Source of the DNA: Ignavibacterium sp.
GTDB lineage: Bacteria; Bacteroidota; Ignavibacteria; Ignavibacteriales; Ignavibacteriaceae
DNA length: 64,000 bases
Assembly (NCBI GenBank): GCA_032027145.1
Contig: JAVSMP010000001.1
Coordinates: forward strand, 1 to 64,000
Direction of reading: 5' to 3'
Shown: in pieces, positions 4,049 to 45,039 of the stretch
How positions within the stretch are numbered: the first letter of the stretch is position 1
How the letters are laid out: each line of letters starts with the position of its first letter
Made by a program: the position numbers and the translations under genes
The notes under the pieces: model-generated
The model's database searches: none
Seen by the model: only the letters and a program-made list of their open reading frames with translations
What the model was told of the DNA's origin: nothing

Positions 4049-4329
4049 TTATCTCAACAACATCATCTTTTTTGTTGATATAAATGAACCAGCCTGCAAA
4101 CGATAGATATAAACTCCGCTTGCAAGGTTTGATGCATCCCAGCTTACTTCATAATATCCCGGCTCTTGTTTTTCGTTTACAAGTGTTGCTGCTTCACTGC
4201 CGAGTATGCCATAAACTTTTAAGCTAACATCTGAGAGGCTGGATACCTGATACCGGATTCTGGTTGTTGGATTAAATGGATTTGGATAGTTCTGATTTAG
4301 ATTATGCTCACTTGGTAAACCAGATTTTT
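4049..4329 (-). pseudogene. Detached type IX sorting domain of the upstream propeller gene
   Basis: Read in the frame that differs by one base from the preceding propeller gene, this stretch encodes [20 protein letters not shown], then a typical sorting domain ending STKKMMLLR and a TAA at 4049-4051. It has no start of its own and joins the propeller frame if one A is removed from the A5 run on the coding strand (T5 at 4325-4329). It is therefore the true C-terminus of that gene, displaced by a +1 insertion or a sequencing error in a homopolymer. Confidence 0.85.
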
Positions 4330-5570
4330 ACATCGACTTCAATTTCATCAGAATAATTAAAAACACCATTAAAATCTATTTGCTTTAATCTATAAAAGTA
4401 TTTGTTTGAAGAAGTGTTACCAATTGAATCAATAAAAGTATATTTATTAGTTTCAGTTGTTGTACCGCTACCTTTAACAAATCCAATAGGAGTCCAATTG
4501 ATTTTATCTATTCTTCTTTCTATTACAAATCCAGAATTATTTAATTCAGAAGCTGTTGTCCAATTAAGAATAACTTTATCAAAATTACATTTACCTGTAA
4601 AAGAAATTAATTCGACTGGAATAGGCCCACCACCTCCATTTTCCGTAGATAAGATAATTCCATTATTACCGGTTATCCAGCCATTATTCTTATCAAACAT
4701 ATTTAAACCATAAAAGCTGTCGTCTGAGATTGGACTATACTGTGCATACCAATTTATTCCGCTATTTGTAGTATGCAGAATAGCACCTGTAAAACCAACT
4801 GCCCAGCCGGTTGAATCATCAATAAAATCAACATCTCTTAAATGCTGCAAAGTCCCTGAATTTTGTAACATCCAGGTAAGTCCACCATTATTAGTTTTCA
4901 AAATACAACCATTTTCACCGACTGCCCAGCCAACTAAGTTATTTATAAACTCAATATCAAAAATTTTTGAGTAATTGCCTGTATAATAATACTGCCAGGT
5001 TAAGCCTCCATCTAGTGTTTTTTTTATATAGCCTGAAGAACCATCTCCGCACCAGCCAACATTTGGGTTAATAAAATAAACAGCCCAAGTCCATTCAAAG
5101 GAGATAAAAGATTCCTGCCAGATATTTCCTCCATTAAGTGTTCTTAGAAAAATACCCGCACTACCGACAGCCCATCCAAAACTTTCATTTATAAATTGAA
5201 TTCGATGTAATGTATTATCATCAGAATAATATTGGAAATACCAATTTATACCACCATCTGTAGTTGCTATAATGTAACCGGATTGGTAAGGATTATAAGT
5301 ATAAATTGTTGCCCATCCTTTTAATGAATCAATAAAATAAATTGAATGCACATTGTATTTAAGACCAATTGAACAGTCCAGCCAATCTAAACCGCCATTT
5401 GTTGTTTTGACGATACATCCTTCATCGCCGCCAGCCCATCCTAAGTTCTGGTCAAGGAAAAAAACTGTAAGAAATCTTTGGTTAGTTCCGGAATTCTGCA
5501 GCACCCACTGTGAGTTAGCAGATGAAAAGAAGAATAGTAAAAACAAAATGAATATTATTAATGATCTCAT
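4308..5570 (-). CDS. Ycf48-like beta-propeller secreted protein, frameshifted before its sorting domain
   Basis: The start is taken at the ATG at 5570 (MRSLIIFILFLLFFFSSANS, a clean signal peptide) with GAGAGA upstream; an in-frame start 8 codons earlier would only add charged residues. The body is a series of about seven repeats of the form GWAVGxxGxIxxTxNGGxxW, typical of Ycf48-like/BNR propellers, followed by a fibronectin-III-like module (PVELISFTGKCNFDKVILNW). The frame then ends at IWFTK and TGA, although an intact NYPNPFNP sorting domain follows one frame away (4049-4329). As written, the product would lack its type IX secretion signal. It is probably a surface or extracellular protein of unknown binding role. 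The propeller assignment is firm; the break may be biological or a homopolymer error. Confidence 0.85.
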   Translation of the reverse strand: MRSLIIFILFLLFFFSSANSQWVLQNSGTNQRFLTVFFLDQNLGWAGGDEGCIVKTTNGGLDWLDCSIGLKYNVHSIYFIDSLKGWATIYTYNPYQSGYIIATTDGGINWYFQYYSDDNTLHRIQFINESFGWAVGSAGIFLRTLNGGNIWQESFISFEWTWAVYFINPNVGWCGDGSSGYIKKTLDGGLTWQYYYTGNYSKIFDIEFINNLVGWAVGENGCILKTNNGGLTWMLQNSGTLQHLRDVDFIDDSTGWAVGFTGAILHTTNSGINWYAQYSPISDDSFYGLNMFDKNNGWITGNNGIILSTENGGGGPIPVELISFTGKCNFDKVILNWTTASELNNSGFVIERRIDKINWTPIGFVKGSGTTTETNKYTFIDSIGNTSSNKYFYRLKQIDFNGVFNYSDEIEVDVKIWFTK

Positions 5571-5694
5571 TTGATTTCTCTCATTGTAAATCAATTTTTG
5601 AAGCAGACCCTTTGTTAAACTAGATTAAATTAAATTTAATATCAACTATTACAAACTTACTTTAGTATATTTCTAATCAATAAGTATATTTTTT

Positions 5695-40381: not shown

Positions 40382-40468
40382 TTTAATATGAATAATACTT
40401 CGATTGACTGCAAATATAAGTTCTCTCAATCAGAAATACAGTCACAAATAACAGTATTAAAATTAAAA

Positions 40469-40497
40469 GGCGAGCTTTAATGCCCGCCTTTTTATTA
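40469..40497 (-). terminator. Terminator of the sialidase-like sorting-domain gene
   Basis: On the minus strand GGCGGGC pairs with GCTCGCC around a 6-base loop (ATTAAA), one G-T wobble, followed by TTTT; A-rich on the other side. It lies about 90 bases after the stop at 40585. Confidence 0.75.
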
Positions 40498-41133
40498 TGA
40501 TTTTATTTCCAACTTAAAAGTATCTCTGTCTGTCACTCGGATAGAAGTCAAAGAGTGAGTTTAACAGAAAGTTAATAATATTTCTTATCTAAGCAGCAAC
40601 ATCTTCTTTACTGAAACAAATCCGCCCGATACTAATTTGTAAAAATATACACCACTCGATAAATTGCCCGCATCAAAACTTACACTATATCTTCCAGGCT
40701 GTTGTATCTCATTTACCAGCACTGCAACTTTTTCACCAATACTGCTGAAGATTTCTAACTCCACATTACCAGCATTTGATATAGAATAATTTATTGTTGT
40801 TGATGGATTGAATGGATTCGGATAGTTCTGATCTAATGAAAACTTGTCAGGTGTGTTTACATCAACTTCGATAACATTTGAGTATTCTATGCTTCCATTA
40901 TAATCTATCTGCTTGATACGATATGAATATGATCCTGATGCAAGTCCTGCATCTGTATATGAATATGATCTTATCTCAGTTGTTGTTCCAAAGCCCGGAA
41001 CAAAACCTATCTCCTGCCAATTAGATTCTGAATACATCCGTTCAACCGCAAATCCGGAATTATTTGTCTCAGTTGCAGTTGACCAGTTCAGAATAACTGA
41101 ATTATCAACTACATTTGCTGTGAATGATGTTAA
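40469..41133. repeat. 665-bp perfect direct repeat, copy A
   Basis: By direct comparison this stretch is identical, base for base as far as I can read, to 42491-43155. It covers a terminator, about 90 bases of 3' non-coding sequence and the last 180 or so codons (fibronectin-III-like module plus sorting domain) of the gene at 40585-42351. Identity stops abruptly at both ends. Confidence 0.92.
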
Positions 41134-42351
41134 CTCAACCGGAATGATAGCAGAAAGTTTATCAAAGAATAATCTTTTAGAGCCATCATTTCCAACCCAT
41201 AAAGCAGCTACATCTGAACCTGAGTATGGTAATGATATAAGTGAAGTGGAATAAAATGGTGAATATTCCGGCGGATTATCACTAACGTGTACAGGTGCAG
41301 AAAATGTTGATGATCCATGTGAAACAGATGTAAAATAAATAATGTCTGTTGCATTTGAACCCTGCCCAACTTGTAAACTATCAGAGTAATAAACAATTCC
41401 AAAATCGCCTGTTCCGGAACCAGGATAAAATCCTGCATCAAAAGAGTACTCATCTGTATTGGGATTACCAGCTACCAGTATTGGCGTACCATAAGCTGCA
41501 CCATTATTTATACTTTTCTTTGCCCAAATATCTCTTGAACTGTCTGGACCCAAAGTATAGAAAATCCATGATTCACCATAGCCCGCAACAGTTTTAATTT
41601 CTTTTTTATAACCAACTTCTGTAATAACATCTATAAACCCAGATGAAGTGAGAATACCCGGACCTGTTTCGCGGTATCTGGCTTGTCTGACTACAGACAT
41701 TGCAGTATCTATATTAACCGGACCATAATAATTTAAATACAAAGTGTCACCCGTAACTGACATAAATACTTTAGGCATTGCACCGGAAGTAGTAATCAAA
41801 CCTCTTGACATCCAGGTTTTTCCGCCTGTTGTAGAACCATATCTAACAATTGAATTATTTGGTAGTGAATCTACACAAACATATAAATTACCTGTAGAAG
41901 AAGCTACCATATCATAAGTACGATAATTGCCGTTAAAAATCTTAGCAAAATTTCCACTTAATGGATTCCAAGTATATATGTCGGTTCCAATCTGGAAAGA
42001 ACAATAAATTGAATCAAGTCCGCTTCGGAACATTTTAATTTTCGAAAAGTAACCTCTGAAATTTATTCCCTGAGGAAGTAAACTCCATGAATCACCTCCA
42101 TCAGACGAGGTAAAAATAACCAGCCCAAGATTTGCAGTTGCAAGAGTATCATTAACTGCAACGAAGATAGTTCCATCTGACTTTTGAACTCCGGAAAAAC
42201 TGCCAACCGGTTCATTATTAAGAATAGTTTTATCAACAGCCCACTCTATTTGTCCTGAGGTTGGTTTTGCATCTACAACTTTAATTTCGGTATCATTTTG
42301 AGTGTAGATGAATGTTGATAAAAAAAAGAATACAAGTAGTAGTTTTTTCAT
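40585..42351 (-). CDS. Secreted sialidase/BNR-like protein with type IX sorting domain
   Basis: 588 residues. Signal peptide MKKLLLVFFFLSTFIYTQ; the ATG has AGGAGGCGCT directly upstream, the strongest ribosome site in the window. Residues about 20-400 look like a BNR/sialidase-type propeller (FTSSDGGDSWSLLP, YGSTTGGKTWMSR, SINNGAAYGTPILV). Then come a fibronectin-III-like module (VELTSFTANVVDNSVILNWS) and a sorting domain ([20 protein letters not shown] to KKMLLLR). Catalytic residues of true sialidases are not evident, so I infer a binding or structural propeller exported by type IX secretion. The last 180 or so residues are identical to those of the next gene upstream. Confidence 0.9.
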   Translation of the reverse strand: MKKLLLVFFFLSTFIYTQNDTEIKVVDAKPTSGQIEWAVDKTILNNEPVGSFSGVQKSDGTIFVAVNDTLATANLGLVIFTSSDGGDSWSLLPQGINFRGYFSKIKMFRSGLDSIYCSFQIGTDIYTWNPLSGNFAKIFNGNYRTYDMVASSTGNLYVCVDSLPNNSIVRYGSTTGGKTWMSRGLITTSGAMPKVFMSVTGDTLYLNYYGPVNIDTAMSVVRQARYRETGPGILTSSGFIDVITEVGYKKEIKTVAGYGESWIFYTLGPDSSRDIWAKKSINNGAAYGTPILVAGNPNTDEYSFDAGFYPGSGTGDFGIVYYSDSLQVGQGSNATDIIYFTSVSHGSSTFSAPVHVSDNPPEYSPFYSTSLISLPYSGSDVAALWVGNDGSKRLFFDKLSAIIPVELTSFTANVVDNSVILNWSTATETNNSGFAVERMYSESNWQEIGFVPGFGTTTEIRSYSYTDAGLASGSYSYRIKQIDYNGSIEYSNVIEVDVNTPDKFSLDQNYPNPFNPSTTINYSISNAGNVELEIFSSIGEKVAVLVNEIQQPGRYSVSFDAGNLSSGVYFYKLVSGGFVSVKKMLLLR

Positions 42352-42490
42352 AGCGCCTCCTGAATATGTTTAAGGATAGTTTAACATTTAGTTTCTTATT
42401 TCTTTAAGCTAAAAGTTGAATAAACTATTAAGATTATTATGCTCAGTAACTGCAAACTTAATTCTATTAAGTATTAATTACAATAATTAT
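42352..42490. other. Leader region of the sialidase-like gene, before repeat copy B
   Basis: AT-rich, with no gene. It carries the promoter region of the minus-strand gene starting at 42351. Copy B of the 665-bp repeat begins at 42491 with the terminator of the upstream gene. Confidence 0.5.
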
Positions 42491-42519
42491 GGCGAGCTTT
42501 AATGCCCGCCTTTTTATTA
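42491..42519 (-). terminator. Terminator of the Ycf48-like sorting-domain gene
   Basis: Identical copy of the hairpin at 40469-40497 (GGCGGGC/GCTCGCC, loop of six, T run) on the minus strand, inside the 665-bp repeat. Confidence 0.75.
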
Positions 42520-43155
42520 TGATTTTATTTCCAACTTAAAAGTATCTCTGTCTGTCACTCGGATAGAAGTCAAAGAGTGAGTTTAACAGAAAGTTAATAA
42601 TATTTCTTATCTAAGCAGCAACATCTTCTTTACTGAAACAAATCCGCCCGATACTAATTTGTAAAAATATACACCACTCGATAAATTGCCCGCATCAAAA
42701 CTTACACTATATCTTCCAGGCTGTTGTATCTCATTTACCAGCACTGCAACTTTTTCACCAATACTGCTGAAGATTTCTAACTCCACATTACCAGCATTTG
42801 ATATAGAATAATTTATTGTTGTTGATGGATTGAATGGATTCGGATAGTTCTGATCTAATGAAAACTTGTCAGGTGTGTTTACATCAACTTCGATAACATT
42901 TGAGTATTCTATGCTTCCATTATAATCTATCTGCTTGATACGATATGAATATGATCCTGATGCAAGTCCTGCATCTGTATATGAATATGATCTTATCTCA
43001 GTTGTTGTTCCAAAGCCCGGAACAAAACCTATCTCCTGCCAATTAGATTCTGAATACATCCGTTCAACCGCAAATCCGGAATTATTTGTCTCAGTTGCAG
43101 TTGACCAGTTCAGAATAACTGAATTATCAACTACATTTGCTGTGAATGATGTTAA
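42491..43155. repeat. 665-bp perfect direct repeat, copy B
   Basis: Same orientation and content as 40469-41133, offset 2022 bases, covering the terminator, the 3' non-coding stretch and the C-terminal coding part of the gene at 42607-45039. The first difference on the right is a T at 43156 where copy A has C. Confidence 0.92.
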
Positions 43156-45039
43156 TTCAACTGGAATTGAAAGTTCTAATCCTCTCATTATTAAACCATC
43201 TGTACCTACCATCCATAAATATGGACCATTAATCCTGATATCTCTTATTGCTTGTGATGAACCAAGGAACAACTGACTTCCAATCCAATTATCACCACCA
43301 TCTGTTGTGTAGAAAAAAACTCCACCATCACCGCCGATATAACCATATTCATTACCCACAAATCTTATCGTATATAAAGCTAAAGAGGTTGGCATTTGTA
43401 TTTCAGTAAAACTGCTACCGCCATTAGTTGTTTTAAATAATTTTCCTGAGCTTCCTGAAATGAATCCGTTATCAGCATCAAAGAAATGCATTGAATACAG
43501 TGTTGTTGTTCCAAGAGTTGTGATTTGATTAAAAGACACACCTCCGTTTGTAGATTTGCTTACCCGGTTACCACCTCCGCAAAGATAGATTACTGAAGAA
43601 TTAACAATAAAAATTTCATAGCCAGCCGCACTTCCCCATCCGGCAGGTACTGACGCCCAGCTAGCTCCTCCATCAGTTGTTCTGGCAACCTGTCCGCTGC
43701 TGTACATTGCAAAACCAAGATTTTCATCATAAAATTTTATGTCATAAATATTACTTGATGCAACACCTGTTCCCGTATTAAGTTGATTCCAGTCATCTCC
43801 GCCGTTTGTAGTTTTGTAAACACCGTTCGGACCAATTGCACCAACGTATCCAACATTTTCATTTAAAAAGAAAACAGAATAAGTTCTATATCCCGGATTA
43901 AGAGAGAGCTTTGACCAGACAGCACCTCCATCAGTGGTTCTTAAAATATCACCATAAGAATTTCCGGTTGCAATGCTTCCGCCAACAGCAAAACCAACTG
44001 ATTGACTCGGAAAGCTGACTCTTTGCAAAATATTATTTGCAGCCGAAATACTTTTTAACTGCCAATTGACTCCATTGTCTTGTGATACAACTATAGTACC
44101 TATATCCCCACCAATCAATATTGGAGTAGCTGCATCTGAATTAACACCTGATATAGCCAGACTAAACAGATTTGCTGTTGCTGCGGTTTGGATAAGAGCC
44201 CAGTTTGTGCCTCCATTTGTTGTTTGAAGTACTCTCCCCGAAGTTGTAACAGCATAACCACTATCAGCATCAATGAATTTTACTGAGTAGATAGAGGTAG
44301 TTGTTGAACCTATATCGTAAATAATTCCTCCTGAGTTTCCACCATCAGTGGTTTTAAAAATTCTGCCGGTACTGTTAGAAATCCAGCCTGTATTTTCATT
44401 CAGGAAATAAAGCCCGCGAACCGTACCACTAAGTCCTGAGATATTGGAGGAAATGTTATTCCAATTAGCACCGCCATTAGTTGATCGAATCAATATCCCT
44501 GTTGTTGCCGATGCAGATCCCATAAATAATAATGTATCGTTAACAAAATGAATTTTATAAATCGTTGTAGTACCGAAAGTAGAAGCTGACCAATTATTTC
44601 CACCGTTGGTTGTCTTTAATATATTTCCGGCAGTACCAACAACAAAACCAGTATCAGCATTTATAAAATCGACATCATATAATGTAACAGTAACACCGGA
44701 GTTTTGTTGTACCCAATTATCTCCGCCATTAGTGGTTTTCATAATCAGTCCTCCACTACCAACTACATATCCGGTATTCTGATCAACGAATTTTGCAGCT
44801 TGTATATTACGTGCCTGCGAATCAATATAAGCAACAGACCAAGTACTGCCTGCATCTGTAGATATTGTAACAGCACTTCCATTACCAAATAACATAAATT
44901 TATTAAGTGAAAGAACTACTGCGTCATTTTGATCTGCTCCGCTGGGTTTTGGATTTTGCCACTCCCAATTAAAGTCTTGGCTATATGCTGTTATACAAAG
45001 TAAGATTATAATGAAAAGGTAAACAATTAGATTTTTCAT
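42607..45039 (-). CDS. Large Ycf48-like propeller protein with type IX sorting domain
   Basis: The start is moved to the ATG at 45039, which has AAGGAG seven bases upstream and begins a signal peptide (MKNLIVYLFIIILLCITAYS); the 27 codons before it are leader. About 810 residues. The body has about a dozen Ycf48-like/BNR repeats (TGYVVGSGGLIMKTTNGGDNW and similar), enough for two stacked propellers, followed by the fibronectin-III-like module and sorting domain that are identical to those of the next gene downstream. It is predicted to be exported and attached at the cell surface. Proteins of this type are numerous in the phylum; ligand unknown. Confidence 0.92.
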   Translation of the reverse strand: MKNLIVYLFIIILLCITAYSQDFNWEWQNPKPSGADQNDAVVLSLNKFMLFGNGSAVTISTDAGSTWSVAYIDSQARNIQAAKFVDQNTGYVVGSGGLIMKTTNGGDNWVQQNSGVTVTLYDVDFINADTGFVVGTAGNILKTTNGGNNWSASTFGTTTIYKIHFVNDTLLFMGSASATTGILIRSTNGGANWNNISSNISGLSGTVRGLYFLNENTGWISNSTGRIFKTTDGGNSGGIIYDIGSTTTSIYSVKFIDADSGYAVTTSGRVLQTTNGGTNWALIQTAATANLFSLAISGVNSDAATPILIGGDIGTIVVSQDNGVNWQLKSISAANNILQRVSFPSQSVGFAVGGSIATGNSYGDILRTTDGGAVWSKLSLNPGYRTYSVFFLNENVGYVGAIGPNGVYKTTNGGDDWNQLNTGTGVASSNIYDIKFYDENLGFAMYSSGQVARTTDGGASWASVPAGWGSAAGYEIFIVNSSVIYLCGGGNRVSKSTNGGVSFNQITTLGTTTLYSMHFFDADNGFISGSSGKLFKTTNGGSSFTEIQMPTSLALYTIRFVGNEYGYIGGDGGVFFYTTDGGDNWIGSQLFLGSSQAIRDIRINGPYLWMVGTDGLIMRGLELSIPVELTSFTANVVDNSVILNWSTATETNNSGFAVERMYSESNWQEIGFVPGFGTTTEIRSYSYTDAGLASGSYSYRIKQIDYNGSIEYSNVIEVDVNTPDKFSLDQNYPNPFNPSTTINYSISNAGNVELEIFSSIGEKVAVLVNEIQQPGRYSVSFDAGNLSSGVYFYKLVSGGFVSVKKMLLLR

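Follow-up and report, generated by a model that had tools for sequence, protein, structure and literature searches.

The stretch of DNA analysed here (the window) covers the initial 64 kb of genome G000, which consists of a single contig of 3.67 Mb. Two neighbouring genes on its minus strand, gene B (42607-45039) and then gene A (40585-42351), end in the same sequence. Positions 40469-41133 and 42491-43155, spaced by 2022 bp, are identical at 665 of 665 bases, silent and non-coding sites included, so that the perfect 665-bp duplication described in the initial annotation was confirmed. The 64-kb window has no second direct repeat of similar length. The parts of the locus, all on the minus strand, are the following.

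40469-41133, minus strand: exact repeat unit forming the tail of gene A, 665/665 identical to 42491-43155
42491-43155, minus strand: exact repeat unit forming the tail of gene B, 665/665 identical to 40469-41133
40585-42351, minus strand: gene A, 588 aa, predicted secreted, with a T9SS type A sorting domain
42607-45039, minus strand: gene B, encoding 810 aa with a body of BNR/Ycf48-like repeats and a T9SS sorting domain
41143-42351, minus strand: body of gene A, unrelated to the body of B
43165-45039, minus strand: body of gene B
40597-40824, minus strand: T9SS sorting domain of A (TIGR04183, 42.2 bits, cut-off 23)
42619-42846, minus strand: T9SS sorting domain of B (TIGR04183, 42.2 bits, cut-off 23)
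40849-41142, minus strand: FnIII/Ig-like beta-sandwich preceding the sorting domain of A (from predicted structure and Foldseek; limits approximate)
42871-43164, minus strand: FnIII/Ig-like beta-sandwich preceding the sorting domain of B (same protein sequence as in A; limits approximate)
40465-40492, minus strand: hairpin with A-run and U-run 3′ of gene A, an intact terminator-like site (11 pairs)
42491-42510, minus strand: hairpin stem 3′ of gene B without a full U-run (7 pairs, then ATAATTATTG); the repeat stops at the last base of this stem

Content and borders of the repeat

The repeat comprises the last 549 coding bases of each gene and 116 bp of 3′ non-coding DNA past the stop codon. 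It holds an FnIII/Ig-like domain, a T9SS sorting domain, the stop codon, 3′ non-coding DNA and a hairpin stem. Both PF18962 and TIGR04183 were above cut-off in A and in B, in agreement with the type IX sorting domain assigned earlier, and on the strength of this C-terminal domain the two proteins are predicted to be secreted as T9SS type A cargo. No Pfam model recognises the module in front of it, which had been called fibronectin-III-like. The predicted structure of the 185 residues common to both proteins contains two beta-sandwiches (mean pLDDT 88.8) and its best Foldseek matches were PorU of the P. gingivalis T9SS and domains of the FnIII/Ig type, which bears out that description.

The bodies of the two genes are different, again as first proposed. 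That of gene A has no Pfam match, and comparison of the two bodies gave a best blastp E value of 0.025, which is not significant, and a local score of 71, against 54 ± 8.5 (maximum 81) for shuffled sequences. Remote homology of the bodies was considered and rejected: the near-full-length blastp alignment of the two proteins is carried by the identical tail, and the bodies alone give no significant match. The seven neighbouring genes encode a sigma-54-type regulator, a histidine kinase and DUF4175, DUF4159, EVE, RmuC and aromatic lyase proteins. A mobile cassette was also rejected, as no recombinase, IS or integration-site features are present near the repeat among these seven genes.

Ungapped identity drops to chance level on both sides of the repeat. 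The ends had been described as sharp and were found to be so, with a correction for the upstream one: directly upstream of the exact tract, 12 bases are still alike (ATTCCGGTTGAG / ATTCCAGTTGAA), which places that border inside a conserved PVEL motif without a unique junction. The downstream border in the window is the last base of the stem GGCGGGC-ATTAAA-GCTCGCC, and the counterpart stem gives the same border in the sibling genome G002 (see below). The hairpin behind gene A has an 11-pair stem, AAAAGGCGGGC..GCTCGCCTTTT. That behind gene B closes with GCTCGCC|ATAATTATTG and has no full U-run. The repeat does not extend to the A/T run to which the site behind A owes its quality as a terminator; B has ATAATTATTG in its place. 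A terminator had been counted as part of the duplication; its hairpin stem is indeed common to both copies but its U-run is not, so they have no complete terminator in common. Taken together, these borders suggest that the hairpin is where copying originally stopped, a limit of homology that later conversion would respect.

The locus in a sibling species

The nearest named relative, G002 (CP053447.1, Ignavibacteriota bacterium IGN3), belongs to the same genus and was assembled independently, also as a single contig. Among the species searched, the locus is common to these two only. The neighbourhood is colinear in G002 with 87.6% identity over 12 kb, and orthology extends to the flanking genes and the spacer. 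The ortholog of gene A has 86% amino acid identity over the body and that of gene B 90%, the corresponding nucleotide values being 87.3% and 88.1%. Both tails are present in G002 as well; their mutual identity is 98.55% over 691 bp and they differ at about 10 positions.

Since A and B, each with its tail, are syntenic in G002 and the 3′ border is unchanged there, the two-tail arrangement is older than the species split. The very recent event called for by the initial annotation is thus retained for the last homogenisation of the tails and has to be given up for the arrangement itself. The proposal that new bodies are fitted to a ready tag did not survive the comparison: the bodies of A and B are each orthologous between the species and have kept their places, and it is the tail sequence that moves between fixed genes.

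Between the species, the tails are ~86% identical in their coding part and 72% in their non-coding part, which amounts to a difference of ~16% overall. Their dS is 0.54-0.57 between species, 0 within G000 and 0.05 within G002, and the dS of the bodies between species is 0.43-0.46. In a four-way alignment of the tract, 111 columns were of the species type, none of the ortholog type and 8 of other types. The corresponding counts (species/ortholog/other) were 0/28/8 for the 5′ flank and 0/9/41 for the 3′ flank. A tree of ten tails gave moderate support (73) for the A2/B2 grouping; the identity matrix and the site counts are unambiguous. The tails are therefore closer to each other within a species than between species while bodies and flanks are orthologous, which is concerted evolution. 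It is very probable from these comparisons that recurrent recombination, most likely gene conversion, is what keeps the tails of A and B alike.

The last homogenisation was dated by a clock-based estimate, using the ~16% difference between species and, for the window lineage, 3/665 as the upper 95% bound on unseen divergence. On this basis, the window lineage would have been homogenised last during roughly the final 3% of the period since the species separated, and the figure for the G002 lineage is roughly 9%. As the locus is common to only two of the species searched, the number of events is bounded at one conversion or more per lineage; the copying was presumably repeated rather than confined to one event in each. 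The original donor, the tail of A or that of B, was sought with a tail tree that included the A and B orthologs of other genera, in which shared tails grouped with tails of the same genome with weak support. Outside the genus, the closest ortholog of gene B (in G006) is 71% identical over the body and has a different, longer C-terminus (996 aa in total), suggesting that tails change partners over longer times.

Other sorting tails of the genome

A second locus behaves in the same way. Three tails, a, b and c, lie at 1788529, 1790565 and 1793280 in G000 and have a colinear counterpart in G002. The first two genes have unrelated bodies, since the blastp match between them spans the tail only. 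In G000, a and b share 99.6% identity and in G002 all three tails are 98.8-99.1% identical, while tails in orthologous positions are 80-92% identical. Tail c of G000 is a mosaic: its first part is identical to a/b, the next is G002-like and a short a/b-like stretch follows. Internal switches of this kind are expected from gene conversion, as partial tracts. The view put forward at the outset, that ends of such proteins are spread by gene conversion, is strengthened both by the concerted evolution seen with the sibling species and by this second locus.

The tails of G000 were studied more widely from the stretches around the best 150 sorting-domain matches. Fourteen pairs of these tails shared 94% identity or more across a minimum of 180 bp, and in 12 of these pairs the members are on the same strand and within 10 kb of each other; random placement gave a mean of 0.13 and a maximum of 2 in 2000 shuffles. 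On a circular chromosome, the members of a further pair, 3655221/4061, would be separated by 14.6 kb, and the only truly distant near-identical pair among the best 150 tails is 4061 with 547491. Not all near-identical clusters are tail-only, several carrying paralogous bodies or longer duplicates, such as the four-gene array at 2532344-2540225 with its duplicated units of 1.4 kb. Identity reached 90% in 13 of the 55 neighbouring pairs among the best 150 tails. Most neighbours are thus not homogenised, and it seems to be pairs with some existing similarity that undergo conversion.

Some further tails were noted in passing. The sorting tail at 4061-4288, near the contig start, lies in a 92-aa open frame that is out of frame with the preceding ORF (4308-5594), and 4061-5594 is possibly a frameshifted gene; this tail is 98-99% identical to those at 3660922 (over 603 bp) and 547491 (over 233 bp). 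At 388221-388415 and 390297-390476, second sorting tails containing stops lie directly downstream of the intact tails at 387754 and 389796 and are probable leftovers of gene replacement or duplication. A headless tail copy is found at 1003478-1003705, where a 212-aa frame reproduces the end of the gene at 1006587 with 98.6% identity. In G006, which represents a second genus, the tails at 1311572 and 1315330 are 99.3% identical over 555 bp and the bodies only 26%, in examples that were chosen for equal scores and so are no fair sample.

Mechanism, alternatives and known systems

A scheme that would account for these results begins before the split, with A and B in tandem and already provided with a common tail made up of the FnIII-like domain, the sorting domain, the 3′ non-coding DNA and the hairpin stem. 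Since the split, the two copies, which lie on one strand at a distance of 2 kb, would have undergone homologous recombination in which one overwrote the other, most likely by RecA-dependent gene conversion and repeatedly, separately in each species. The conversion tract would halt where homology ends, its upstream limit being the PVEL motif and its downstream limit the hairpin stem, and the unrelated bodies would be left unchanged. Other tandem genes of G000 with T9SS tails would undergo the same process.

The tails could also have become alike through repeated unequal crossing-over, by which a 2-kb unit (body A plus tail) expands and contracts between the direct repeats. The copies are indeed direct repeats 2 kb apart, other clusters contain whole-gene or longer duplicates (the 1.4-kb units at 2532344-2540225) and, if the locus had passed through a triplicated state, the same pattern would be expected. 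Nevertheless, no unit has been gained or lost at the A/B locus in either species and the second locus keeps its three-gene order, copy number being unchanged at both. The mosaic third tail, a feature confined to the second locus, is more readily explained by short conversion tracts. Unequal crossing-over is therefore considered rather unlikely and gene conversion is preferred.

The complete identity over 665 bp could equally result from a single, very recent copying of one tail onto the neighbouring gene. As both tails, with the same hairpin-stem border at the 3′ side, are at the orthologous place in G002, this would require independent duplication to identical borders in both species and is extremely unlikely. 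An assembly or polishing artefact, in which both copies were built from the reads of one and two somewhat different tails were levelled, had been a worry from the beginning, and polishing can level near-identical repeats. It is very unlikely here: G000 is one contig in which the flanks of both copies are unique, and polishing has no bearing on how far the tails have diverged between the species. What largely removes the concern is that G002, assembled separately, has the same two-copy structure with copies that differ at about ten sites. Export by the T9SS in general requires the sorting domain, and strong selection on this export tag might be thought to keep the copies alike. However, synonymous and non-coding sites are homogenised too, being identical or nearly so within each species and free to differ between them (dS 0.54-0.57; 72% identity in non-coding DNA), so selection on the protein is no explanation and this possibility is practically negligible.

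The concerted evolution seen here shows that the evolution of a modular export signal, as a common unit, can be separate from that of its carrier proteins, the tails of unrelated secreted proteins changing jointly. Trees of such tails track species and neighbourhood rather than protein descent, which matters when T9SS cargo is classified. Natural replicates are offered by genomes with more than 100 tails for the effects of tract length, distance and divergence on bacterial gene conversion. More speculatively, in Ignavibacteriota with at least 150 T9SS cargo genes the sorting tails might form local recombination pools. Conversion between neighbours would keep the tails exchangeable between unrelated bodies, homogenising the export tag and occasionally reassigning it, and would perhaps be a standing route to new surface proteins.

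The few open papers found on the T9SS and gene conversion, recombination or concerted evolution contained no report of homogenised T9SS sorting tails, subscription journals being outside this coverage. The process itself is known from Helicobacter pylori; what is new here is its action on T9SS tails, the unrelated bodies and the number of clusters. According to the accounts in PMC2795765 and PMC3960876, the 3′ parts of the H. pylori genes babA/babB and homA/homB resemble each other more closely in one strain than in comparisons across strains, and this likeness is ascribed to intragenomic gene conversion (primary work by Pride & Blaser 2002, cited there). These are likewise homogenised 3′ ends of paralogous outer-membrane protein genes. 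As those accounts describe them, however, the H. pylori genes are full-length paralogs compared between strains of one species, whereas A and B have unrelated bodies and were compared between two species; moreover, the A/B tract includes 3′ non-coding DNA and the hairpin stem, and there are many tail clusters per genome.

A prokaryote-wide survey reported 26 genes with recurrent concerted evolution by gene conversion (PMC6053082). As with the A/B tails, paralogs in one genome are closer than orthologs, but the survey as given in its main text, in which the words "surface" and "secretion" are absent, describes whole-gene families, mostly parts of complexes. A third related case is that of kgp, rgpA and hagA of Porphyromonas gingivalis, T9SS cargo genes whose identical repeat regions recombine with rearrangement of domains (PMC5266723). 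There, adhesin modules are common to the genes and rearranged, which is discussed as antigenic diversity; in A and B, in contrast, it is the export end that is homogenised between neighbours while the bodies are fixed.
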